NCBI RefSeq assembly: GCF_004146235.1
Contig: NZ_SELO01000014.1
Coordinates: 1-64,000, forward strand
DNA length: 64,000 nt
DNA from: Tropicimonas sp. IMCC6043
GTDB taxonomy: Bacteria > Pseudomonadota > Alphaproteobacteria > Rhodobacterales > Rhodobacteraceae
Reading direction: 5' to 3'
The position numbers and the translations under genes were made by a program. Below are positions 21,185 through 35,901 of the stretch, one piece after another. Numbering within the stretch: position 1 is the first letter of the stretch; every line of letters starts with the position of its first letter. The notes beneath the pieces are model-generated. The model was not told the origin of the DNA, ran no database searches, and worked only from the letters and a program-made list of their open reading frames with translations.

Positions 21185-21305
21185 TTCGGGGGCCAGCCGG
21201 AGGGAGAAAGGGCCGGAGTGCGACAGGCGGCATTTGGCGATTCAACGACCGCCGCAAATGCTGTAGAGCGGAGGCCGACATGCATTGCCTGAAGTGGATC
21301 ACGCC

Positions 21306-22346
21306 ATGAATATCGACCTTCTCAAACGCCTTTGCGAAACGCCCGGCGTGCCCGGCCACGAGCACCGCGTGCGCGAGTTGATCCTAGCGGAGACCGAGGG
21401 CCTCTTCGACCATGTCGAAACCGACCCGATGGGCTCGCTTCTCTGCCGACGCGACGCGCGCGGCGGCGCGGCGGCGCCGCTCAAGGTCATGCTGCTCTGC
21501 CACATGGACGAGATCGGTTTTCTCGTGAGTCACATCACCAAGGAAGGCTTCCTGCACGTCCAGCCGGTCGGCGGCTTCGACCCGCGCACGCTCTTCGCCC
21601 GAAGGGTGCTGGTCTGCACCGAGGCGGGCGACCTGCCCGGCGTGATGAACGCCTCCGGGCCGGGCGTGCACATCACCAAGCCCGACGACCGAAAGAAGGT
21701 CCCCGACACGCACGAGTTCATCGTCGACATCGGGCTCGGCGCCGCGGCGGCCGAGCGGGTGAAGATCGGCGACATGGTGGTGATGGACGAGCCCTTTGTG
21801 GAAATGGGCGAGAAATGCGTCTCCAAGGCGCTGGACAATCGCGTCGCCTGCTGGCTCGGGATCGAGGCCATGCGCGGCCTCGGCGAGGCCGCCAACGCGG
21901 CCGAGATCCACGTCGCCTTTACCGCGCAGGAAGAGGTCGGCCTCCGGGGCGCACGCACCGCCGCCTTCCGGGTGCAGCCCGATATCGGGCTCGGCGTCGA
22001 CACGACGCTGGCCTGCGACACCCCCGGCGTGCCGGAACAGGATCGGACCACCGAGCAGGGCAAGGGATTCGGCCTGCATGTCCGCGACAGTTCCTTCATC
22101 GCCGATACCGGGCTGGTTGCCGAGATCGACGCCCTAGCCCGCGCCGAGGGTATCCCGTTCCAGCGCACCATGCTGCGCTCGGGCGGACAGGACGGCGCGG
22201 CGGCACAACAGGCCGCTGCCGGCGCCCGTGCTGTGGGGATCGTCGTCGGCACGCGCTACATCCACACGATCTGCGAGATGATCGACCTGCGCGACCTTGC
22301 GGCGGCGCGCGACATCCTCGTCGCCTATCTCAAGCAGGCGGGGTAA
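21306..22346 (+). CDS. M42 family metallopeptidase (glutamyl aminopeptidase-like)
   Basis: 346 residues. Metal ligands and catalytic acids sit in CHMDEIGFLVSH, KALDNRVACWLGIEAM, AQEEVGLRGART, GVDTTLACDTPGV and the C-terminal HTICEMIDLRD. These dinuclear aminopeptidases (PepA/TET/FrvX group) trim peptides in the cytosol, usually as large tetrahedral assemblies. ATG 21306; the preceding in-frame ATG at 21285 is less likely. Its 3' end overlaps the convergent apbE gene by 17 bases. Confidence 0.92.
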   Translation: MNIDLLKRLCETPGVPGHEHRVRELILAETEGLFDHVETDPMGSLLCRRDARGGAAAPLKVMLLCHMDEIGFLVSHITKEGFLHVQPVGGFDPRTLFARRVLVCTEAGDLPGVMNASGPGVHITKPDDRKKVPDTHEFIVDIGLGAAAAERVKIGDMVVMDEPFVEMGEKCVSKALDNRVACWLGIEAMRGLGEAANAAEIHVAFTAQEEVGLRGARTAAFRVQPDIGLGVDTTLACDTPGVPEQDRTTEQGKGFGLHVRDSSFIADTGLVAEIDALARAEGIPFQRTMLRSGGQDGAAAQQAAAGARAVGIVVGTRYIHTICEMIDLRDLAAARDILVAYLKQAG

Positions 22347-23313
22347 CGGCGGCAGGTCGTTCAGGCTGCCCGAACGCCGCAAAGACCGGACCGGTGCGCG
22401 TCTGCGCGAGCTGCGCTCCGTCCCGGTCGAGAAACAGCACGGAGAGGCCGAGGCGCTGCGCCAGTTCGGAGCCACGGTCGCGGCCGAGCACCATCATCGC
22501 CGTTGCCCAGGCATCGGCCAGAAGGCAGGTCGGCGCGACCACCGTGACCGAAGCCGGGCTGTCGGCCAGCGGCGCGCCGCGGGCAGGATCCATGGTGTGT
22601 GACCATCGCCGGCCGCCAAGGTCGATCCAGTGCCGATAGTCGCCCGAGGTGGCGACGGCGGCGTCGCCGAGGGTCAGGACCGAATGCGCGGCACGATGGC
22701 CATGGTCGGGTCGTTCCACGCCGATGCACCACGGCGCGCCGCCCGGTTGCGACCCGAGCGCACGGAGCTCACCGTCGATCGAGAGGAGCGCATGCGCGAT
22801 GCCGAAGCTGCATGCGGTCTCGGTCAGCCGGTCCACGCCAAAGCCCTTGGCGATCCCGCCTAGGTCGAGCACCAGCGGCGCGTGCTTGCGGGCTCGGCCC
22901 CGGGCTATGTCGATCTCCAGCACCTCATAGGTCGGGCGGCGCGGCGCGTGCAGCGCGGCGCGGATCCGGTCCTCCGCCGCCTCGGCCGCGCCGAACCCCC
23001 AGGCCCGGACCGCATCGCCCAGCCCCATGTCGAAGGCTCCGCCCGATGCGCGGCCGATCGCGAGCCCGGCGTCGAGGACGGTGAGAAGACCGGCCGGTCC
23101 GTCGACCCACCGGCCGGTCTCGGCGCGGTTCAGCCGCATCAGGTCGCTGTCCTCCGACCAGGTCGACATCTGGCGGTCAACATCGCCGACAGCAGCCGCC
23201 AACGCCGCCCGGAGTCGGGCCGGTTCGAGATCTGGTGCGGCATAGACAATCGCAGACCAGCGCGTGCCCATCGTCGGACCGTTGAGCGCGTGGCGGACGA
23301 GATCAGTAGACAT
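22330..23313 (-). CDS. apbE: FAD:protein FMN transferase (ApbE), without signal peptide
   Basis: 327 residues. ApbE blocks are present: LNGPTMGTRWSA, GGAFDMGLGDAVRAWGFG, DLGGIAKGFGVDRL, SIDGELRALG and the Mg/FAD-site SHTMDPARGAPLADS. ApbE transfers FMN from FAD to a Thr/Ser of target proteins, normally outside the inner membrane, but this protein starts MSTDLVRHALNG with no signal or lipobox, so it looks cytosolic. ATG 23313 overlaps the reductase stop by 11 bases and has GGGAAGG at good spacing; ATG 23322 is the alternative. Likely targets lie in the same cluster. Confidence 0.93.
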   Translation of the reverse strand: MSTDLVRHALNGPTMGTRWSAIVYAAPDLEPARLRAALAAAVGDVDRQMSTWSEDSDLMRLNRAETGRWVDGPAGLLTVLDAGLAIGRASGGAFDMGLGDAVRAWGFGAAEAAEDRIRAALHAPRRPTYEVLEIDIARGRARKHAPLVLDLGGIAKGFGVDRLTETACSFGIAHALLSIDGELRALGSQPGGAPWCIGVERPDHGHRAAHSVLTLGDAAVATSGDYRHWIDLGGRRWSHTMDPARGAPLADSPASVTVVAPTCLLADAWATAMMVLGRDRGSELAQRLGLSVLFLDRDGAQLAQTRTGPVFAAFGQPERPAAVTPPA

Positions 23314-25504
23314 CTTCGACATACCTTCCCTGCGCCTTGAGGGCGATCGGTCCGAGATTGGATGGGGCAAGGATATCCTCGAGCGCGGCGGCAACGCCCG
23401 CGGCCATGTCGCGGCCGCCACAGACCATGATCCGTGCGCCATCGGCAATCCGCCGGCGCAGGGCGTCGGCATCCCGGCGCAGCGCGTCCTGAACGTAGGA
23501 ACGATCCACGCTGCGGGAGAAGGCTGTCACGACCGAGCTGAGCTTGCCCTCCTTCTGCCAGCGGTGGAGATCCTCGCCATAGAGCAGGTCGCTGGACCTG
23601 TCGCGGGCGCCGAAATAGAGGTGCATCGGCCGGCGCGCGGTATTGGCGCGGGCAAAGCCCGCCAGCGGGCCGATCCCGGTGCCCGCGCCAATCAGGATCA
23701 GCGGCGCTTTGTCCTCGACCGGGTGGAACCCGGCATTCCGGCGCAGGAAGGCGCGGATCGTCTCGCCCGGCTCCAGCGCGGTCAACTGACCGGAGCAGAG
23801 GTCGCCCGGATGCCTGCGCACGCAGATCTCGATGAACCCGTCGGTGCTGCCGGAGGCGAGCGAGTAGTAGCGCGGCACCGTGTCGCCTTCGGGAATGACG
23901 CCGATAAGATCGCCGGCCTGGAACCGCGCAAAGCCGCGTCCCGTCAGACGGGCCCAGAACGAGCAGCGCGGCAACGCGAAACGCAGGATCGCGGTGGGCG
24001 CCTGCACCGCCTCGCCATAGTCGCGACGCGACAGGAGCGGCAGCAGGACACCGCGCGTCTCGGCGGCCTCGCCGTCGAGCGGCAACGCGACCCCGAGGGC
24101 CTCGGCAAGCGTGGCGCCCCAGCGGGCAAAGTCCTCGTGCGATTGCCTGTCCACGCGGCCGAGCGGCATCATCTCGCGCCGGCCGGCCGCGCGGACCGCG
24201 CTCCGGACCTGCTCGGTGAAGGCGCAGAAGCGTGGAAAGGCGCTGTCACCGAAGCCCAGGATCGCAACCGGGGCGGCGGGTGGCCGTGGCAAAGCGTCGA
24301 GCCGATTGAGGAAGCCCCGGGCCGAGGCCGGTGCGTCGCCATCGCCGGAGGTCGCGGCGAAGATCAGGATACGGGTGGCGCGGAGGTAGCGTTCAGGCGC
24401 GAAGTCCGACATGGCGGCGACATGGGTGGCGCTGCCGGTCCCGGTCAGCGCCTTGCGCAGCGAGTCGGCGAAGCCCCAGGTGGTGCCGCCCTCGGAACCG
24501 ACGAGGAGGATCGTGTCGGCCTCTTCCGCGGTAACCCGGACCTTTCTGCCTCTCGGCAGCAGCGACCGGCCGGATTGCAGCAACCAACCTGTCAGCGACA
24601 GAACCGGAACGCTCAATGCGCAGAGCCCGAGGACCATGCCGAGCCAAGCCGCGCCCTCGCCTTTATGCAGCATCTGGATCGTGTCGGAGACCCGGTCGAG
24701 CCGCGTTTTCCCGGCCCATGCCAGCAGCGCGCCGCTGCCTTGGTCGACGTAGCCGATGCCGGCTGTAGTCTCGATGGTGAAGACATCGCGCAGGTCCCCG
24801 ATCCGGGGCAGGGTCAGCGCGCGAAGATCCGCCAGCTGGATCTCCTTCAGTGCCGTCAGCATGGCCGGAGAGACCCCGCCCACACCGCTCACCGGAGGCA
24901 GCGCCGGTAGTGCGCCACCATGCGGAACAAGGCCGGTATAGCCGGCGAAGAGCCAGAGCCCGGTGAGCGCCGAGAGCAGGAGGCCGATCCCGGCTGCGCG
25001 CGCAATCTCGAGATGCAGCCGCTGTGGCAACGGCCCTTTCAGCGGTCCGAAGAGCCGGCGCCAGCCGCCCATCCGGCGCGCGGCGAGCAGGAAGCCGGAG
25101 ACCGAAAGGATCACCATGAAGAGGCTGACAAGCGCCACGGCGATCCGGCCCGCGTCCCCGGCGAAGAACGCGCGGTGCATGTCGACGAACCAGCTTTCCA
25201 CCGGTGAGCGGACAAGCGGGGCAAGGATCGTCCCATTCGCCGGGTCGATGACCCATTGCGACGCGGTGCCGTCGTCATAGGCGTAGGCGGTGATCCGGCC
25301 CGAGGGCGCGCGCCGGATCTGTTCCAGGCCCGGCACCACATTCTGAACCTGCGCGACGAAGCTGCCGACATCGGTCACCGGAGTGGCCGGCGTCGACACC
25401 GCCTCTGCTGCCGGATAGAGCGAAAGGACGGCACCGCTCAGCGCCGTGACGGAGACCAGCAGGGCGAGGACGAGCCCTGCCCAACGGTGCAGCGGACGGA
25501 TCAT
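23303..25504 (-). CDS. PepSY membrane protein fused to flavodoxin and FAD/NADPH reductase domains
   Basis: 733 residues. Residues 8-30, 120-141, 168-189 and 286-309 are membrane helices; a PepSY-like domain fills the loop 40-115. A flavodoxin-like FMN domain spans about 331-470 (ILLVGSEGGTTW as the phosphate loop at 332-343). The FAD site RYYSLAS is at 545-551 and the NADPH site GAGTGIGPLAG at 607-617; the chain ends GRYVEDVY as in CPR-type reductases. Predicted to pass electrons from cytosolic NADPH through FAD and FMN to an acceptor at or across the membrane. It follows the DUF2271 gene by 11 bases and overlaps apbE. Confidence 0.9.
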   Translation of the reverse strand: MIRPLHRWAGLVLALLVSVTALSGAVLSLYPAAEAVSTPATPVTDVGSFVAQVQNVVPGLEQIRRAPSGRITAYAYDDGTASQWVIDPANGTILAPLVRSPVESWFVDMHRAFFAGDAGRIAVALVSLFMVILSVSGFLLAARRMGGWRRLFGPLKGPLPQRLHLEIARAAGIGLLLSALTGLWLFAGYTGLVPHGGALPALPPVSGVGGVSPAMLTALKEIQLADLRALTLPRIGDLRDVFTIETTAGIGYVDQGSGALLAWAGKTRLDRVSDTIQMLHKGEGAAWLGMVLGLCALSVPVLSLTGWLLQSGRSLLPRGRKVRVTAEEADTILLVGSEGGTTWGFADSLRKALTGTGSATHVAAMSDFAPERYLRATRILIFAATSGDGDAPASARGFLNRLDALPRPPAAPVAILGFGDSAFPRFCAFTEQVRSAVRAAGRREMMPLGRVDRQSHEDFARWGATLAEALGVALPLDGEAAETRGVLLPLLSRRDYGEAVQAPTAILRFALPRCSFWARLTGRGFARFQAGDLIGVIPEGDTVPRYYSLASGSTDGFIEICVRRHPGDLCSGQLTALEPGETIRAFLRRNAGFHPVEDKAPLILIGAGTGIGPLAGFARANTARRPMHLYFGARDRSSDLLYGEDLHRWQKEGKLSSVVTAFSRSVDRSYVQDALRRDADALRRRIADGARIMVCGGRDMAAGVAAALEDILAPSNLGPIALKAQGRYVEDVY

Positions 25505-25515
25505 CGGCCCCTCCC

Positions 25516-25986
25516 CTACATGTCGTAGCTGAACTGGGAGATGTAGGTCCGGCCCGTCACGAGCTGGCCGGCGCCGTCCGTGGTCAACGGCACCACGATC
25601 TCGGAGGGGCTGTTGCGCATGTCCTCGACCGAAGCGTCGATATGCAGCTCGTACCCGGCATCGAACAGCGCGTCGGCAAGATCGAAGCTCACCGTAAGGG
25701 TCTTGCCGGACCCGACGCTGGCTCCGGTGATCCCGTTCACCTCTGCCGTATTGCCGCCGGTGGCGCGGTACCAGTCGGTGAGGCTTTCGTAATACTTGGC
25801 TTTCGGACCGGCCATCCACAGCGAGCCAACATAAGCCCCTCCGGCGTCTGTGACGTAGTAGGCCAGATAGGCCCCGTTACCACCGTACTCGTTCAGCGTC
25901 GTGGTAAATGCCACGTCCCTGGCCAGGGCAATGCCGGGCGCGGTAAGCGCGGTGGTCAGCGCAAGGGCGGCAAGTAGCGTCTTCAT
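25516..25986 (-). CDS. Secreted DUF2271 protein with a flavinylation-like motif
   Basis: 156 residues with a Sec signal peptide (cleavage near ALA-RD, residue 22). The mature part is beta-rich (VAFTTTLNEYGGNGAYLAYYV; SDLADALF-like strands) and typical of DUF2271. N84-G-I-T-G-A-S90 resembles the ApbE target motif Dxx(S/T)GA(T/S), with Asn for Asp, so S90 is a candidate flavinylated residue. AAAGGAGATACC precedes the ATG. It is the middle gene of the minus-strand cluster with the PepSY reductase and apbE. Confidence 0.85.
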   Translation of the reverse strand: MKTLLAALALTTALTAPGIALARDVAFTTTLNEYGGNGAYLAYYVTDAGGAYVGSLWMAGPKAKYYESLTDWYRATGGNTAEVNGITGASVGSGKTLTVSFDLADALFDAGYELHIDASVEDMRNSPSEIVVPLTTDGAGQLVTGRTYISQFSYDM

Positions 25987-26025
25987 TGTCTGGTATCTCC
26001 TTTGGTCGGAATGGTCTTGGCGGGT

Positions 26026-26421
26026 TCAGTTCGTCTGCACCCTCGGCGCCGTATCGCTGTTGAAGAGGCCGTTGGTGGGCGGTGGCGTGGTGCCCGCCCG
26101 CGCCGGGCCGGCGCCGCCGCGACGATAGTCGTCGTCGTCATCATCTTCATCGTCGTGATCGTCGTCCCAGAAGCGGCCGAAGAACCAGCCATGGTCGTGG
26201 ACGTCCCTCTCGCGATGGCCGTGCCGCTCGCCATGTCCATGCGTCCCGGAGCGTTTCCACGCGTCCCCGTCGGCGGGCGCGCTGGCAGAGGTGGTGGCAC
26301 AGGGCGCGACCGCGGCCTGATCGCCCAATGGTTGACCTGTTACCGGGCTCTGCGCCTGAGCCGAGGCGCTCAGGGTCGTGACGGCAAGTGTTGCAAGAAG
26401 CAGTCTTGGAAGGGTCGGCAT
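26026..26421 (-). CDS. Small secreted His/Asp-rich protein
   Basis: 131 residues with a signal peptide (cleaved after AQA, about residue 23). The centre is dense in metal ligands: HGHGERHGHRERDVHDHG (about 61-78) and DDDHDDEDDDDDD (about 86-98), with aromatic FFGRFW between them. No enzyme motif; metal buffering or metal sensing are plausible. GCAGGAGACTCAC is upstream of ATG 26421. It is transcribed away from the two-component genes and probably with the DUF2271 gene, 40 bases downstream. Confidence 0.8.
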   Translation of the reverse strand: MPTLPRLLLATLAVTTLSASAQAQSPVTGQPLGDQAAVAPCATTSASAPADGDAWKRSGTHGHGERHGHRERDVHDHGWFFGRFWDDDHDDEDDDDDDYRRGGAGPARAGTTPPPTNGLFNSDTAPRVQTN

Positions 26422-26463
26422 GTGAGTCTCCTGCGTGATCTGATGCCCACTGGATCGCCTCCC

Positions 26464-26481
26464 TTCCTGATCGCTTCCTGA
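26464..26481. promoter_or_regulatory. Direct repeat, candidate response-regulator box
   Basis: TTCCTGA-TCGC-TTCCTGA: two 7-bp half-sites repeated with an 11-bp period, the spacing OmpR-type regulators use for tandem dimers. It sits in the 137-bp divergent region between the His/Asp-rich gene and the response regulator, so it could control both. Confidence 0.55.
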
Positions 26482-26558
26482 CGAGGCCGCGGAAATCGCG
26501 TCAGCTTCCCGTAAGGTTTCGGGCGCATTAGGGTGCCCGAGGAAATCCGGAGCCACGC

Positions 26559-27218
26559 ATGCGCATCCTGTTGATCGAAGACGACACGGTTCTCGGGGCC
26601 GCGGTCCATGACCAGCTCAAGGCGGACGGACATTCCGCCGACTGGGCCACACGGCTCGACATGGCGCAGGACGCACTGGCCGTCGGCCCGTTCGAACTCG
26701 TGCTGCTGGACCTGATGCTGCCCGACGGGCGCGGCATCCCATTTCTCAGGGTCATGCGGGCGCGGGGCGACGTCACGCCGGTGATCATCCTGACCGCGCT
26801 CGACCAGGTGTCGGACCGGATCGAGGGGCTGAACGCGGGGGCGGACGACTACATGGTCAAACCCTTCGACCTCTCCGAACTGTCGGCGCGCATCGGTTCG
26901 GTGGCGCGGCGCTATGCCGGCAATCCGAATCCACTCGTTCATGTCGGCCCGCTTGAGATCGACCTTGCCGCCCGAACGATCCGGCGCGAGGGCAGGCCCG
27001 TCGTGCTGACCGCCCGGGAATGGGCACTGTTCGAGGCGCTCGTCCAGGCTCCGAGCCAGGTGCTGTCCAAAGGTCAGCTCGAGGAACATCTCTACAGCTT
27101 CGACGACAGTATCGAGAGCAATACGATCGAGGCGCATGTGAGCCGCCTGCGCAAGAAACTCGGCCGCACGGCGATCGAGACCGAGCGCGGGCTCGGCTAC
27201 CGGCTGGGTCGGTCATGA
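26559..27218 (+). CDS. OmpR-family response regulator
   Basis: 219 residues. Receiver domain: acidic pair EDD (7-9), phosphoacceptor Asp51 in VLLDLMLPDG, and the conserved Lys in DDYMVKPFD. The C-terminal winged helix has TAREWALFEALV and SNTIEAHVSRLRKKLG. It is closest in style to the QseB/PmrA/TctD group. ATGA overlap with the sensor kinase gene. Confidence 0.93.
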   Translation: MRILLIEDDTVLGAAVHDQLKADGHSADWATRLDMAQDALAVGPFELVLLDLMLPDGRGIPFLRVMRARGDVTPVIILTALDQVSDRIEGLNAGADDYMVKPFDLSELSARIGSVARRYAGNPNPLVHVGPLEIDLAARTIRREGRPVVLTAREWALFEALVQAPSQVLSKGQLEEHLYSFDDSIESNTIEAHVSRLRKKLGRTAIETERGLGYRLGRS

Positions 27219-28612
27219 CAGGGCCGCGCTCGCTCCAGCTTCGGCTCGCGCTCGCGATCGGGCTGGCGGTCACCCTGCTGTGGCTCGCTGCGGCCGGTGT
27301 CACGGCGCACCGGCTGCGGCACGAACTGGACGCGGAATTCGACGGCGCGCTGCGCGACACGGCGCACCGTCTGCTGCTGCTGACCGGACGCGAGGAGAGC
27401 AACTTTCGCGTCCGCACGCATGGCCACGAGCGGGATGACCGGTCCGACCATGACGACGATTTCGACGACGACGATGAAGCCAGCAAGGAGGATGCGGGCA
27501 AGGCGCTTTCCGGCGACGCCTACAGCTATCTCATCCGCGACGAGTCCGGAGCGGTCATAGTGGCCTCCGAGGGCGCCGACCCGGCCGATTTCCCGCCTTT
27601 CGAGCACGAAGGCTTCCTCCGCACCGGCGACCGAACCCTCTTCTACGACCGCGCCCGACGTGGCGACACGGTCCTGACCATCGCCGTGTCCGAGCCCAGC
27701 TCGCGCCGCACCATGGTCGCCGGCGAGATCGCGGTGAGCCTGAGCCTGCCGTTGCTGCTGGTGATCCCGCTGAGCCTCGTGGCCATCTTCCTCGTGGTCA
27801 GGCACAGCCTGGCGCCGATGCGACAATTGCGCGACGACCTTGGCCAGCGGAGCGCCAATAACCTCGCCCCGCTCGACGATCGCGGCCTCCCGGCCGAGCT
27901 GACGCCCATCGTCGGCAGCCTCAACGCCCTCCTCGCGCGGCTCGGCGGTGCCTTCGAGGCCGAGCGCAGCTTTGCCGCCAACGCGGCGCACGAGTTGCGC
28001 ACGCCGGTGGCCGGCGCCATCGCCCAGGCGCAGCGACTGAAGGCCGAGACGGAGGATGCCGCGGCGGCGGCACGCGCGGGCGAGATTGAAACCACGCTGA
28101 AGCGGCTGAACAACCTGTCGGAGAAACTCATGCAACTGGCCCGCGCCGAAGGCGCGCGGCTGCGCACTGGACAGCCGACCGACCTGCGCCCGGTCCTGCG
28201 CATGATCGTCGACGATTTCGAACGGCTCGGCGCCTCCGGGCGAATGGAGACAAGCCTCGTAGAGCGACCGGTCCTGTCGGATCTCGACCCGGACGCTTTC
28301 GGGATCCTCTCCCGGAACCTGATCGAGAACGCGCTGAAGCACGGCGCTCCCGGCGAGCCGGTTGCCGTCTCGCTGTCGGACCGTGCGGTCCTCACGGTCT
28401 CGAACCACGGCGCTGTCATCCCGCCCGACGCGCTCGAGCGGCTGACCACCCGGTTCACCCGCGCCAATGGCAAGGTCGGCGGCAGCGGGCTCGGCCTCGC
28501 CATTGTTCGAATCATCGCGGACAGGGCCGATGCGACACTCGAATTTCATTCGCCCGTGCCGGGCGGTCCGGACGGCCTTGAGGTGCGCGTGTCCTTTCCC
28601 TCTGCCGGATAG
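27215..28612 (+). CDS. Sensor histidine kinase with a His/Asp-rich periplasmic loop
   Basis: 465 residues. TM1 about 11-32, periplasmic region 33-170, TM2 about 172-195, then HAMP, the H-box with His259 in NAAHELRTP, N-box NLIENALKHG and G-box GGSGLGLAIV. The periplasmic region has THGHERDDRSDHDDDFDDDD at about 68-87, similar to the neighbouring secreted protein. PmrB-like kinases use acidic loops for Fe(III), so a metal cue is plausible. It is translated with the regulator (ATGA). Confidence 0.92.
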   Translation: MTGPRSLQLRLALAIGLAVTLLWLAAAGVTAHRLRHELDAEFDGALRDTAHRLLLLTGREESNFRVRTHGHERDDRSDHDDDFDDDDEASKEDAGKALSGDAYSYLIRDESGAVIVASEGADPADFPPFEHEGFLRTGDRTLFYDRARRGDTVLTIAVSEPSSRRTMVAGEIAVSLSLPLLLVIPLSLVAIFLVVRHSLAPMRQLRDDLGQRSANNLAPLDDRGLPAELTPIVGSLNALLARLGGAFEAERSFAANAAHELRTPVAGAIAQAQRLKAETEDAAAAARAGEIETTLKRLNNLSEKLMQLARAEGARLRTGQPTDLRPVLRMIVDDFERLGASGRMETSLVERPVLSDLDPDAFGILSRNLIENALKHGAPGEPVAVSLSDRAVLTVSNHGAVIPPDALERLTTRFTRANGKVGGSGLGLAIVRIIADRADATLEFHSPVPGGPDGLEVRVSFPSAG

Positions 28613-28773: not shown

Positions 28774-30699
28774 ATGATCCGTCGCATCTCTGTCGCCGCA
28801 ATCCTCGCAAGTCTTGCGATGCCTGCGGCGGCACAGTTTCACCCCAACCCCGAAACGCTCGAAGGGCTCTATCCGGGCCGGGCCTATTCGCCCTATGCCA
28901 GCCGGGGCTTTCCGAGCCGGGTGTTCTGGGGCGACACGCACCTGCACACGGGCTATTCAATGGATGCCGGGCTCTTCGGCAACACCACCGGGCATGACAC
29001 CGCGTATCGCTTTGCGCGCGGCGAGGAAGTTACTGCTGCTTCCGGTCAACCGGTCAAGCTCTCGCGGCCGCTGGACTGGCTGGTGCTGGCCGACCATTCC
29101 GACGGCATGGGCATGATCTTCGACCTGCAGAAGGGTACGCAGAACATTCTCGCCTCCGAACAGGGACGGCGCTGGCACGATGCGATGGTGGCCGGCGGCG
29201 AAGAATCCGCCATGGCGGCGCTGGACCTCATCACCAATTTCTCGCAAGGCACGATGGACGAGGCCCTGCTTCTCGACTACTCGCCCGGCTCGCCGATCTA
29301 TTCCTCGATCTGGGACACGGTGGTCGCCAAGGCCGAGGAGTACAACGATCCGGGCAGTTTTACGGCCTTCATCGGCTATGAATGGACCGCGCTGGTCGCG
29401 GGCAACAACCTGCACCGGAACGTGGTCTACCGCGACAACGGAGACAGGGCGCTGATGATGGAGCCGATGGTCACGCAGGCGCCGGTTGGCTCGACAGACC
29501 CGCTGGATCTCTACGCGTGGCTGGAAACCTTCGAGGAGAAGACCGGCGGCAACGTCTTCGCGCTTGCGCACAACGGCAACCTGTCGAACGGGATTATGTT
29601 CCCGACCGAGGCGCAATATACCGGCGCGCCGATCGACGAAAACTATGTGCAACTGCGCGCGAAATGGGAGCCGCTCTACGAATACACCCAGATCAAGGGC
29701 GACGGCGAGGCCCACCCCTACCTCTCGCCCGAGGACCCGTTCGCGAATTACGAGACCTGGGATGTCGGCAACCTGGACCTGACCCAGGCCAAGACGCCGG
29801 AAATGCTCAAGCACGAATACGCCCGCGAAGCGCTCAAGCAGGGCATGGCGCTGGAGACGAAGCTTGGCACAAACCCCTACAAGTTCGGGGCGGTGGGCTC
29901 GACCGATAGCCACACTTCGCTGGCGACGGCGGATTCCGACAACTATTTCGGCAAGGCCACCAATGCCGAACCCTCGCCGACCCGGATGATGCATCCCTTC
30001 ACCAAGACCGATATCGGCGCCTTCGAGGGCTATCAGCTCGTGGCGTCCGGCTATACCGGCGTCTGGGCCGAAGAGAACACCCGCGCATCGCTCTGGGACG
30101 CAATGGCCCGCCGCGAGACCTATGCCACCACCGGCCCACGGATGATGGTGCGCTTCTTCGGTGGATGGGATTTCACCGAAAACGACCTGCGGAGCCGGCA
30201 GCCCGCCTTTGCCGGCTATGAACGCGGCGTGCCGATGGGCGGAGACCTGCGCCCGGCTCCGGACGGGGCGGCTGCCCCCACCTTCATGGCCTATGCGCTG
30301 CGGGATCCGATCGGCGCCAATCTGGACCGCATCCAGATCGTGAAGGGCTGGTTGGATGCCGACGGCGAGTTGCATGAGCAGGTCTACAACGTCGCCTGGT
30401 CCGAGGGCCGCGAGCCAGATGCCGACGGCGCACTGCCGCCGGTCGGCAACACCGTCGACCTGGAGGCGGCGGGATATCTCAACACCATCGGCGCCGCCGA
30501 ACTGGCCGCGGTCTGGACCGACCCGGATTTCGACCCCGCCGAGAAGGCGTTCTACTACGTCCGGGTACTCGAGATCCCGACGCCACGCTGGGTGGTCTAC
30601 GACGCGGTGCGCTTCGGCGTCGAGATCCCCGAGGGCGCAGAGACCACGCATCAGGAACGCGCCTATACCTCGTCGATCTGGTACACGCCCGAAGGCTGA
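28774..30699 (+). CDS. Secreted DUF3604 protein (PHP-like)
   Basis: 641 residues with a signal peptide (AAA-Q, residue about 20). Metal-site motifs typical of PHP-superfamily hydrolases appear in order: [10 protein letters not shown] (HxH), [21 protein letters not shown] and [13 protein letters not shown]3604 proteins are abundant in marine bacteria, but the substrate is unknown; a periplasmic metal-dependent phosphoesterase or hydrolase is the inference. AGGGAGG precedes the ATG. The downstream hairpin and two coupled genes suggest a three-gene unit. Confidence 0.88.
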
Positions 30700-30730
30700 A
30701 CCGCCGGGTTTCGTCCCACCCCGCTTCACC

Positions 30731-30764
30731 GGCCGGGCCGCTGCCTTCAAGGTGCGGCCCGGCC
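30731..30764 (+). other. Intergenic hairpin after the DUF3604 gene
   Basis: GGCCGGGCCGC and GCGGCCCGGCC form a perfect 11-bp stem around a 12-base loop. No T-run follows; instead CTTGAC, a possible -35 element, starts one base after it (30765-30770). It may end or stabilise the upstream message while a new transcript starts, or set expression ratios within an operon. Confidence 0.5.
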
Positions 30765-30823
30765 CTTGACGTCGGCGAGCAAGCGTCGGAACCATGGGAG
30801 CTATTCAGTCCGAGGCGCCCTGC

Positions 30824-31666
30824 ATGCGACTTTTTCGAGAACCGCTCTTTCACTTCTTCCTGCTCGGACTGGCGATCTTTGGCTGGTACGCCTGGATCAA
30901 CCCAACGGAACCCTCCGCCGGCGACGCCGGCACCATCGTCCTCGACACAAGCGATGCCGAGCGGCTGGCCGCGCAATTCCGCGCGACCTGGCAGCGCCCG
31001 CCTACGGAGGCAGAGCTCGCCGGCCTTTTGCAGGCGCTGGTGCGGGAGGAAGTGCTGGTGCGGGAGGCCCGTTCGCTCGGACTCGACCGCGGCGACGGTG
31101 TGGTGCGCAATCGGCTGGCCCAGAAAATGGAGTTCCTGACCAGCTCCGTCGCCAGCGCGATGCAGCCGGAGGACGAAGTGCTTCGGAAACATCTGGAGCG
31201 CTATCCGGAACGGTTCACGGCGCCCGGCCGGCTGGCTCTCGAACAGGTCTATCTCGGCGAGGCGCCCGGCCCCGGGAACATGTCAACCGCGCTCGGCGCG
31301 CTCCGGGACGGCGCCGACCCGGCGGAGATCGGCATGCGCAGCCTGTTGCCCGCAACGGTGCCGCTGTCGCCTGCGCCGGCCGTCGAGGCGATCTTCGGCG
31401 GCGGTTTCGCCGAGGCGCTGGACGCGCAACCCCAGGGCGAATGGTCCGGCCCAATCGGTTCGGCCTATGGCGCGCATCTGGTGCGTGTCACCAACCGAAC
31501 CGCGCCACTGCTGCCGCCCTTCGACGAGATCCGCGACCGGGTGCTGCTCGACTGGCGCCGGGAGATGACGGAGGAACTCGCCCGCAGCCGCTACGAAGCA
31601 CTTGTAGCGCAATATGAGGTGATCCTGCCGGACCTCTCCGAGCTACCGGACGGAACTGTCAGATGA
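30824..31666 (+). CDS. Membrane-anchored PpiC-type peptidyl-prolyl isomerase
   Basis: 280 residues. MRLFREPLFHFFLLGLAIFGWYAW is an N-terminal anchor. The middle helical part (REEVLVREARSLGLDRGD, VVRNRLAQKMEFL) is SurA/PpiD-like, and the parvulin-like part follows (RLALEQVYLG, WSGPIGSAYGAHLVRV). It likely acts as a periplasmic folding helper for its neighbours. I use ATG 30824, not 30794, since conservation in this family starts MRLFREP. ATGA overlap with the HupE-like gene. Confidence 0.82.
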   Translation: MRLFREPLFHFFLLGLAIFGWYAWINPTEPSAGDAGTIVLDTSDAERLAAQFRATWQRPPTEAELAGLLQALVREEVLVREARSLGLDRGDGVVRNRLAQKMEFLTSSVASAMQPEDEVLRKHLERYPERFTAPGRLALEQVYLGEAPGPGNMSTALGALRDGADPAEIGMRSLLPATVPLSPAPAVEAIFGGGFAEALDAQPQGEWSGPIGSAYGAHLVRVTNRTAPLLPPFDEIRDRVLLDWRREMTEELARSRYEALVAQYEVILPDLSELPDGTVR

Positions 31667-32673
31667 TCCTGCGCCGCGCCGCCCTCGCCCTTCTCCTGCT
31701 TCTGGGCTCGCTTGCCGAGGTATCCGGCCACGCTCTTCAGCCCGGCTATCTCGACCTGCGGCAGCTCACGGCAGACACCTGGCAGGTGTTCTGGCGCAAG
31801 CCGGATGTCAATGGCGCACCGATGGCGATCGACGCCGCGCTGCCTGACAGCTGCATGCCGGCTGTCGGTCCCGACCCCGCTTTCGACGGGTCGGCCTGGG
31901 TCTCGGCCTGGGTCGCAGACTGCCCCGGCGGACTCGGCGGGCGCGAGATCGCCATTCCCGGGCTCGAGCTTCAGCGCACGGACGTGCTGGTGCGCCTTCA
32001 GCCGCACGACCGCAGCGCGACGACGCAACGGCTCACCCCCGAGGCGCCGAGCCATGTCCTGCCAGAAACCCCCAGTACCTGGGGCGTGTTCCAGAGCTAT
32101 TTCCGGCTCGGTTTCGCCCATATCCTAGAGGGGCTCGACCACCTGCTCTTCGTGTTTGCGCTTATCATCCTGGTGCGCGACCGCTGGCGGCTGATCGGCG
32201 CGATCACCGCTTTCACCGTGGCGCATTCGATCACGCTGGCATTGGCGGCACTTGGCCGGATCTCGGTTCCTGGCCCGCCGGTGGAGGCGACAATAGCCCT
32301 CTCGATCGTTTTTCTGGCGGTGGAGATCCTCAAGCACGAGGACGGGGCACTCCGTCTCTCGGAGCGAGCCCCCTGGCTGGTTTCCTTCGCCTTCGGCCTG
32401 CTGCACGGGCTGGGATTTGCCGGGGCGCTGACCGAGATCGGCCTGCCCGAGGGCGAGATCCCGGCCGCGCTGCTGGCGTTCAATCTCGGTGTCGAGGGCG
32501 GCCAGCTCGCCTTTGTCGCCGCTGTGCTCGCTGCCGGTGCCGCGCTCCGGCTGGCCGTTCCGCGGGTCCTTGCGCAGGCCCGCAGGGCGCATTCCGCCGG
32601 CAGCATGCTCACCGGCTACGCGATCGGCGGCACCGCCACATACTGGCTCGTGCAGCGGGTGATTGCGTTCTGA
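31663..32673 (+). CDS. HupE/UreJ-like membrane protein
   Basis: 336 residues. A signal peptide, then a periplasmic domain of about 120 residues, then about six membrane helices. The membrane part opens FAHILEGLDHLLFVFAL and has VAHSITLAL and LLHGLGFAGAL, the His motifs of the HupE/UreJ family. HupE proteins have been linked to nickel uptake, but this long-N-terminal subgroup is uncharacterised. Translationally coupled to the isomerase. Confidence 0.85.
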   Translation: MILRRAALALLLLLGSLAEVSGHALQPGYLDLRQLTADTWQVFWRKPDVNGAPMAIDAALPDSCMPAVGPDPAFDGSAWVSAWVADCPGGLGGREIAIPGLELQRTDVLVRLQPHDRSATTQRLTPEAPSHVLPETPSTWGVFQSYFRLGFAHILEGLDHLLFVFALIILVRDRWRLIGAITAFTVAHSITLALAALGRISVPGPPVEATIALSIVFLAVEILKHEDGALRLSERAPWLVSFAFGLLHGLGFAGALTEIGLPEGEIPAALLAFNLGVEGGQLAFVAAVLAAGAALRLAVPRVLAQARRAHSAGSMLTGYAIGGTATYWLVQRVIAF

Positions 32674-34825: not shown

Positions 34826-35901
34826 GTCGTTGACTCCTGCATTGCCAGCCATCCGTCGGCATAGACGCGGGTGTGGGCCGGGTTGAAGACGAGGTGGATC
34901 TCGCTTCCCGGCTCGGGCGCCGCGCCGTCGATGATGGCGCTGACCGGGACGTCGCCCGCCATCGCGTCGAGAACGGTGTGCCGGCCGATATCGGCCGCCT
35001 TGCGCACCCGGGCCGGAATGCCCGTGGCGCCGAGCGAGACGAATTCGGGCCGGATGCCGATCTCGGTCCGCGCGCCCGCCGGGGCCGCCGGCGTGCCGGC
35101 GGTCTCCACCGTGACGCCCTGGAACGTGGCGCGCCCGCCGTCCATCTCGCAGGGCAGAATGTTCATTCCCGGCGAGCCGATGAAATGGCCGACGAAGGTG
35201 TGTCGGGGGCATTCGAACAGGTCCACCGGAGTGCCGATCTGCACGATTTCGCCATCCTGCATCACCACCACCTGGTCCGCGAAGGTGAGCGCCTCGGTCT
35301 GGTCATGGGTGACGTAGATCATCGTCACGCCGATCTTCTGGTGCAGTTCCTTGACCTTGGAACGTAGTTTCCACTTCTGCGCCGGGTCGATGACCGTCAG
35401 CGGCTCGTCGAACATGATCACGTTGACGTCGTTGCGCACCAGCCCGCGGCCCATCGAGATCTTCTGCTTGTCGTCGGGGCCAAGGCCGGAGGCGCGCGTG
35501 CGCAGCCGGTTCGAGAGGTCGAGTATCTCAGCGATCTCGCGCACCCGGGCGTCGACCTGATCCTCCGGCACGCCGCGGTTGCGCAGCGGGAACGCGAGGT
35601 TGTTGTAGACCGACATGGTGTCGTAGATCACCGGGAACTGGAACACCTGCGCGATGTTGCGTCGGTCCGGCGGCTCGTCGGTGACGTCGCGCTCGTCGAA
35701 GAGAACGCGGCCCTCGCTCGGCGTCAGCAGGCCCGAGATGATATTCAGGAGTGTGGTCTTGCCGCAGCCGGACGGTCCCAGCAGCGCATAGGCGCCGCCA
35801 TCCTTCCATTCGAGATCCATGCGTTTGAGCGCGAAGTCGTCGTCTCCCGCGGGCGCGTCGAGATAGCTGTGGCGGAGGCTGTCGAGCGTGATCTTAGCCA
35901 T
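34822..35901 (-). CDS. ABC transporter ATP-binding protein (GlpT-like)
   Basis: 359 residues, MalK-like. Walker A LLGPSGCGKTTLL, Walker B VIMFDEP and the H-loop THDQTEAL are present. The signature reads LGPDDKQKISMGRGL rather than LSGGQ, which is typical of one of the two ATPases in glycerol-type systems and suggests asymmetric ATP sites. The C-terminal regulatory domain contains GIRPEFVSLGA. It overlaps the other ATPase gene by 8 bases. Confidence 0.88.
   Translation of the reverse strand: MAKITLDSLRHSYLDAPAGDDDFALKRMDLEWKDGGAYALLGPSGCGKTTLLNIISGLLTPSEGRVLFDERDVTDEPPDRRNIAQVFQFPVIYDTMSVYNNLAFPLRNRGVPEDQVDARVREIAEILDLSNRLRTRASGLGPDDKQKISMGRGLVRNDVNVIMFDEPLTVIDPAQKWKLRSKVKELHQKIGVTMIYVTHDQTEALTFADQVVVMQDGEIVQIGTPVDLFECPRHTFVGHFIGSPGMNILPCEMDGGRATFQGVTVETAGTPAAPAGARTEIGIRPEFVSLGATGIPARVRKAADIGRHTVLDAMAGDVPVSAIIDGAAPEPGSEIHLVFNPAHTRVYADGWLAMQESTT

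Follow-up and report, generated by a model that had tools for sequence, protein, structure and literature searches.

The window analysed here is a stretch of 64,000 nucleotides from Tropicimonas sp. IMCC6043, and it contains, at positions 22330-28612, six real genes that form one module. With a probability of roughly 0.6, we regard this locus as a self-regulated module for transmembrane electron export that serves iron or metal homeostasis in the cell envelope. The gene content, the domain order and the co-location of the genes are established, as is the conservation of the operator and of the motifs described below. All six open reading frames (ORFs) were found at the expected positions and are free of internal stop codons. 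The minus strand encodes an ApbE-family FAD:protein FMN transferase (22330-23313, 327 amino acids (aa); PF02424, 243.8 bits), a PepSY_TM-flavodoxin-NADPH-reductase fusion (23303-25504, 733 aa; PepSY_TM 98.8, Flavodoxin_1 47.9 and NAD_binding_1 46.4 bits in Pfam), a DUF2271 protein with a Sec-like signal peptide and the motif ITGAS (25516-25986, 156 aa; PF10029, 112.6 bits) and a secreted His/Asp-rich protein, hereafter the tail protein (26026-26421, 131 aa, start at 26421), whose gene is the first of the redox operon. On the plus strand lie the genes of a two-component system (TCS), namely an OmpR-type response regulator (26559-27218, 219 aa), which was recognised by Pfam and is PmrA/QseB-like, these two being the best NCBIfam models, both below the cut-off, and a membrane sensor histidine kinase with HisKA and HATPase_c domains (Pfam) and an Asp/His-rich periplasmic insertion (27215-28612, 465 aa). 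The genes for ApbE and the fusion overlap by 11 bases, the start codon of apbE being inside the last 11 bases of the reductase gene, while gaps of 11 and 39 bases separate the DUF2271 gene from the fusion and tail genes, respectively; the regulator and kinase genes overlap by 4 bases. A preliminary description of this DNA had taken the six genes for one system, joined by short overlaps and gaps around a divergent control region. This view stands: ORFs, domains and positions were verified, the spacing was confirmed and the families co-occur in relatives.

The comparison of gene neighbourhoods across the family, which had been suggested as a check, revealed strong co-occurrence. PF10029 matches were found in 86 of 394 genomes of the family to which the window belongs, and 92 stretches around other DUF2271 loci were retained (all 94 PF10029 rows minus the window's own and the second row of one genome). 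Some of these stretches stop at contig ends, for which the counts are uncorrected. A second set, overlapping partly with the same genomes, consists of the best 80 of 260 named relatives, chosen by similarity of the reductase. In both sets, the presence of a gene was called by tblastn with the window proteins. Among the 92 family stretches, DUF2271 is present in 90, the PepSY-reductase fusion in 91, ApbE in 87 and all three core genes in 86; the regulator and the kinase accompany DUF2271 in 74, and the orientation is divergent in 74/74. The core genes occur in 80/80 of the best-matching named loci, which span Rhodobacterales, Rhizobiales including Rhizobium johnstonii 3841, Rhodobacter capsulatus and some Burkholderiales, and a divergent TCS is found in 74 of them; wherever the TCS occurs together with DUF2271, in either set, it is divergent. 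With the core in 86/92 stretches and regulator, kinase and DUF2271 in 74/92, all of them divergent, the grouping is therefore not accidental, and the TCS is a standing part of this branch of the module. In more distant members of the class that possess DUF2271 (L153-L163), an ApbE match is present, which is weak in L163 (32 bits), and no regulator or kinase match in these stretches exceeds 42 bits; the class members L164 and L165 carry the whole module. Scanning the genome contigs with a single window protein as query gave no matches, whereas the alignment-based scan succeeded. No relative was found in viral contigs.

The module has a dedicated predicted control site that would tie the TCS to the redox operon. 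Upstream of the regulator gene, the consensus CTGAC-N6-CTGAM-N17-KTCAG-N6-GTCAG was derived, which covers 49 bp with pentamers at 0, 11, 33 and 44 and consists of two direct-repeat pairs facing each other as a palindrome. The copy in the window is located between the two operons at 26467-26515, 45 bp from the start codon of the tail gene and 43 bp from that of the regulator gene. When N17 or N18 was allowed and at least 17 of 20 consensus positions had to agree, the site was recognised in 73/75 family upstream regions, the window included, and in 74/74 of those from the 80 best named loci; with N17 spacing only, just 51/75 family regions pass. Only 1 of 1480 first-order shuffles of the named regions scored 17, and 57 named loci whose first 60 upstream bases are distinct from those of the family set all reached at least 17 (57/57). 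Moreover, a matrix was built from 49 distinct sites of relatives, excluding the window and fixed at N17, so that N18 sites are missed. On the 64-kb window, this matrix gave 31.6 for 26467-26515 and -5.6 for the next independent place; the window thus has one operator site, the sole match scoring at least 5. Across 2.89 million positions of the family loci (limit 20; overlapping hits collapsed and then assigned to genes), sites were located in the divergent gap (50, mostly training sites), before the tail gene (49), before the DUF2271 gene (13), before a small PepSY_2 gene (1) and elsewhere (4). The corresponding numbers for the 80 best named loci are 63, 42, 17, 1 and 6, and 9/10 of the sites found elsewhere are likewise situated between the regulator and DUF2271. 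A divergent site combined with a second one before the tail or DUF2271 gene was present at 33/90 family loci and 43/80 named loci. The binding site of BqsR has been described as TTAAG-N6-TTAAG (PMC4682146), and its geometry, direct-repeat pentamers 6 bp apart, is found in the window and in its relatives.

The window regulator shares 53-84% identity with those co-located regulators that score at least 150 bits. The best NCBIfam models for the kinase are QseC, CztS/SilS/CopS and PmrB, all below their cut-offs. Most kinases of the relatives have a short periplasmic part, and an ExxE motif just past the first transmembrane helix (TM1) is present in 100 of 132 deduplicated kinases. In BqsS, the motif at residues 45-48 serves Fe(II) binding, the second Glu being reported as essential and the first as auxiliary (PMC12666569). 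Because most relatives share this motif, metal sensing is likely for the kinase group, of which the window kinase is an outlier. According to the preliminary description, a metal-sensing kinase controls the redox genes; control through the TCS is favoured by the operator conserved between the operons, which bears indirectly on the transcriptional link whose absence would have refuted that view. The Asp/His-rich loop of the kinase is not conserved. This insertion is the window kinase's own, and other acidic insertions occur in L098, L100, L261 and several Rhizobiales. The loop was rejected as a general metal sensor of the family, being lineage-specific and short in most relatives, and it does not alone show metal sensing. 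Two further ideas were discarded. We do not claim that an acidic kinase loop substitutes for an absent small PepSY_2 protein (Mann-Whitney p = 0.013; 30 absent versus 102 present), since the motif used in this statistic missed tblastn-positive loci and kinship was ignored. An RExxE-like motif, REHDE, in the middle of the loop of 25/76 kinases was dropped because it does not lie just after TM1, unlike that of BqsS.

The protein families suggest how electrons could be moved. The fusion matches the PDB sulfite reductase flavoprotein 6efv in a profile search (4.4e-47) and resembles the diflavin-reductase fold in the structure comparison, too. Its N-terminal 320 residues match FoxB (7abw) in a profile search at 2.8e-08 for the whole sequence and 0.006 for the best single stretch; FoxB was not detected when the N-terminal half served as a single query sequence. 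In the structure model of the fusion (mean pLDDT 82.4, pTM 0.50), long helices cover residues 2-37, 116-145, 159-190 and 286-315, and the topology is read as four transmembrane helices with two periplasmic PepSY parts, followed by a cytosolic diflavin reductase. Four histidines, H6, H110, H164 and H280, are shared by all 34 sequences compared, and in our reading their places at the helix ends would fit two hemes, one per membrane side. Cytosolic NADPH would thus reduce the FAD/FMN reductase domains, and the electrons would traverse the inner membrane via a heme at H6/H164 on the cytosolic side and another at H110/H280 on the periplasmic side. From there, they would reach the FMN that ApbE is predicted to bind covalently to DUF2271. 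The direction from NADPH to a periplasmic flavin, as put forward earlier, is consistent with the domains, the helix model and the four invariant histidines.

For the steps beyond the flavin, we infer the identity of the metal, the signal, the binding of the regulator and the function of the tail protein. The reduced flavin would pass its electrons to a metal in the periplasm, ferric iron being the likeliest candidate, close to the acidic tail protein, whose part may be to bind or buffer cations. The kinase would sense cations in the envelope, with Fe(II) or an ion like it as the probable signal, and the regulator would bind the operator between the divergent operons and drive the redox operon together with its own gene. 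Control of this kind would point to iron or metal homeostasis of the envelope, not to siderophore uptake.

The tail protein itself belongs to an unnamed family of predicted secreted proteins with a conserved C-terminal tail, which appears to be almost exclusive to this module. Searches of Pfam and NCBIfam (E <= 0.01) and of PHROGs (E <= 1) gave no match for the His/Asp-rich protein of the window, and the tail profile A7 detects it with 54.7 bits at 26029-26133. An ORF ending in the tail motif was found at 64/92 family loci in addition to the window and at 59/80 of the best named loci, where the match in L258 looks spurious. The motif is carried on an Asp-rich stretch or on a small PepSY_2 domain, as judged by eye with one protein of each kind scanned. 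After cleaning, profile A7 recovers the tail at E <= 0.001 in at least 62 of the 388 genomes of the family, of which 61 are DUF2271-positive. These genomes contain at least 68 tail places, one in the window, 64 within the fetched DUF2271 stretches and three outside them: one on another short contig (G095), one on the contig of its DUF2271 gene at a distance of about 29 kb (G252) and a weak one in a genome without a DUF2271 match (G152, 4.2e-6). In G252, contig C6 carries the tail at 35227-35328 and DUF2271 at 64777-65154, and the corresponding stretch, L033, lacks a TCS; perhaps the module is split there. Among 230 class-wide genomes, a convincing tail was found only in the window genome and, at a DUF2271 locus, in G479, four others having E values from 0.003 to 0.05. 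Near position 7276 of L101, a tandem tail motif is present at the C-terminus of a PepSY_2-like protein and resembles a countable docking unit. In L053 and L068, the tail protein is part of longer frames (407 and 282 aa) with repeated PepSY_2-like domains, by eye.

The argument for metals leans on the relatives, as the window itself is without the accessory genes concerned. Downstream of ApbE, a heavy-metal P-type (P1B) ATPase is encoded at 29/92 family loci and 29/80 of the best named loci, and VIT1 at 24/92 and 24/80; a cytochrome b561 or ferric-reductase-like gene occurs anywhere in the stretch in 46/92 and 38/80 cases. The motif ATPCP was found in 20/31 and 24/33 of the ATPases scored, and a TPC motif in the transport site may be a mark of the P1B-5 (Fe/Ni) type. 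In the one ATPase of a relative that was scanned with Pfam, no hemerythrin domain was found.

The most serious competing explanation is iron acquisition, that is, periplasmic reduction of ferric chelates enabling the import of Fe(II), as has been proposed for other PepSY/DUF2271 clusters. The published proposal cites Fur-repressed clusters in Shewanella and Caulobacter as well as 231 clusters with TonB receptors (PMC8238504), and work on Caulobacter, Alteromonas and HiuB/FoxB points in the same direction. However, the genome containing the window has no match to the TonB-receptor barrel PF00593, in a search that covered the barrel alone and neither the plug domain nor other uptake genes, and control is local, through a TCS and a BqsR-like box instead. 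Moreover, the transporters added in relatives are of the P1B and VIT1 types, which are usually considered metal exporters. We regard iron acquisition as unlikely.

Somewhat less probable is a role in redox repair or stress of the envelope, in which the flavin would feed oxidised envelope proteins or quinones, a DbfRS/QseBC-like TCS would sense damage and metals would be secondary. The ferric-reductase/MsrQ-like or cytochrome b561 genes in half of the family stretches (46/92) would suit this role, and the activity of DbfQRS is reportedly responsive to membrane integrity. However, the P1B ATPase or VIT1 in about one third of the relatives, the TPCP motif in most of the ATPases scored and the acidic low-complexity secreted proteins all point to metals.

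Equally improbable in our opinion is that the module, spread on plasmids, detoxifies a non-iron metal, for instance Cu, Ni, Zn or Cd. Relatives of the reductase were detected in 197 of 72,556 plasmid records, 92 of them at a cover of at least 80% and 38 of the 197 in Pseudosulfitobacter. Of the six annotated plasmids that were examined, five are typed as conjugative, and in each of these a metal P-type ATPase and VIT stand beside the module. However, the sixth, from Hoeflea, is typed as non-mobilizable and has neither transporter in the stretch, the sole ATPase scanned (L177) exceeds the cut-off only for the general P-type, heavy-metal and Cd-family models, and the ExxE motif and the BqsR-like features suggest iron. 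On the conjugative RepABC plasmids of five genera (L177-L181), the block of module, P-type ATPase and VIT starts about 2-4 kb from the replication genes. Its carriage by such plasmids suggests that the module brings an advantage open to selection, perhaps during metal stress.

Several observations weigh against metal homeostasis through regulated electron export as well. By tblastn with one representative each, the window was found to be without a P1B ATPase, VIT1, cytochrome b561, a ferric-reductase-like protein and the small PepSY_2 protein; one partial VIT1 match is present in the same genome, away from the locus. The window kinase does not have ExxE and carries ELDAE (ExxxE) after TM1 together with a different acidic loop. 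Two of the 75 family upstream regions, L032 and L117, do not contain the operator. Finally, an ApbE without a signal stands alongside a Sec-exported substrate, which the model leaves unexplained.

DUF2271 is a plausible substrate of ApbE. The DUF2271 protein of Amantichitinum has been experimentally shown to be flavinylated by ApbE at a [S/T]GA[S/T] site (PMC8238504), and the motif [ST]GA[ST] is present in 89/90 of the DUF2271 relatives scored. The structure model of the window protein has a mean pLDDT of 83.4, and neither a PDB sequence match up to E = 1 nor a Foldseek match at E <= 0.001 was obtained. Signal peptides were judged from sequence and hydrophobicity, for ApbE by looking for a hydrophobic 11-mer ahead of the conserved GxxMG motif. 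No hydrophobic N-terminus or secretion signal was found in the window ApbE, and the 11-mer is absent from 79/79 family ApbEs of at least 180 bits (87 found) and from 79/79 anchorable ApbEs of the 80 best named loci; the open frame starts no more than 35 residues from GxxMG in 73 and 72 cases, respectively. As a control, the rule recognises 81/89 DUF2271 leaders as well as the ApbE with a lipoprotein-type start encoded elsewhere in this genome. RR does not occur among the first 15 residues of any of 90 DUF2271 leaders, a few of these frames being partial. Of the class ApbEs, 12/14 are anchorable and one is at the hydrophobicity limit; L164-L166 are module-like, and the start codons of the remainder are unfixed. 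The absence of a signal may thus be a wider habit of DUF2271-linked ApbEs, since some ApbEs of the class outgroup may also be without one. The earlier idea that ApbE acts outside the cytosol fits poorly with the missing signal peptide in the window and its relatives.

Bacterial and archaeal ApbEs mostly seem to be secreted, the bacterial cytosolic case described being that of Klebsiella, which has a cytosolic substrate (PMC12052999). It is improbable that the signal-less ApbE likewise serves another, cytosolic substrate while a different, secreted ApbE modifies DUF2271: two further apbE genes do exist in the genome (C293:59338-60186 and C249:192794-193570; one with a lipoprotein-type start), but ApbE accompanies DUF2271 and the fusion in 86/92 and 80/80 loci. 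Within the electron-export reading, a more specific version can be offered tentatively, and we consider it possible, though doubtful. A cytosolic ApbE would load FMN on DUF2271 before Sec export, the tail motif would dock on DUF2271 or PepSY and present the metal, and a local BqsR-like regulon would control the module. If this is true, flavinylation would be a pre-export step without periplasmic FAD, and the flavoprotein would traverse SecYEG already modified.

The electron-transfer core of ApbE, DUF2271 and the PepSY fusion has already been published. The survey by Meheust et al. 2021 defines PepSY-like flavinylation by PF03929 or PF16357 no more than five genes from ApbE or DUF2271 and at least one target with a signal peptide, and lists 3220 PepSY-like clusters and 1077 PepSY genes with an NAD-binding domain; some of the clusters hold VIT1 or MsrQ-like genes, and iron reduction was proposed (PMC8238504). 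The window falls under this definition, with PF03929 (98.8 bits) beside ApbE and DUF2271 and with a Sec-like DUF2271 leader, and it shares with these systems the PepSY_TM protein, ApbE and a DUF2271 protein with the flavinylation motif. It differs by the divergent TCS with its own predicted operator, the tail protein and the signal-less ApbE. In the main text of the survey, "two-component" appears only in the title of a reference, and "P-type ATPase", "lack a signal" and "cytosolic ApbE" are absent (PMC8238504). New here are thus the dedicated, predicted operator and the TCS as a regular part, the tail-protein family, the signal-less ApbE and the accessory P-type ATPase or VIT1 in about one third of the relatives. 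Among the titles and abstracts listed from PMC, which does not contain most subscription papers, none concerns the combination of PepSY flavinylation with a TCS. In a table of the Brucella ovis flavoproteome, the PepSY_TM, flavodoxin and reductase pieces, which by their locus tags are near an ApbE, are named "sulphite reductase alpha component", and DUF2271 is unmentioned there (PMC9045290).

The likeness to other known systems is partial. With BqsRS/CarRS and DbfQRS, as far as they are described in PMC12666569, PMC4682146 and PMC12714742, the relatives share ExxE in most cases and often a small secreted PepSY protein, and the pentamer-N6-pentamer geometry of BqsRS is shared by window and relatives alike. 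However, the pentamers are TTAAG for BqsR and KTCAG/GTCAG in the module, where two pairs make up each 49-bp palindromic site; the target of the module is a flavin electron-transfer operon, and the window has ExxxE and no small PepSY_2 protein. FoxB is related in its N-terminal sequence and, according to the model, in the paired membrane histidines, whereas the PepSY part in the window continues into a diflavin NADPH reductase and has DUF2271 as its partner. CysJ and cytochrome P450 reductase have the flavodoxin and NADPH-reductase sequence and fold in common with the window reductase, which is, however, joined to a membrane PepSY_TM module. In contrast to secreted ApbE lipoproteins, the window ApbE is without an N-terminal secretion signal.

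On the left, the locus is flanked by an M42 peptidase gene on the plus strand (21285-22346), which terminates within the end of apbE. Directly past the kinase gene, on the plus strand at 28774-32673, DUF3604, a PPIC-type rotamase and a HupE/UreJ-like membrane protein are encoded in succession. DUF4198, a common but not defining neighbour in PepSY-like flavinylation systems, was not detected by Pfam among the nine proteins scanned in and around the locus.

The signal-less ApbE poses the question whether covalent flavinylation can precede Sec export, and the tail protein provides a new handle on the destination of electrons or metal beyond the flavin. As the module has its own sensor and a specific predicted operator, its signal should be findable by a simple reporter and its regulon should be predictable. 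PepSY/DUF2271 systems are widespread, and the module gives an entry to what switches this branch on.

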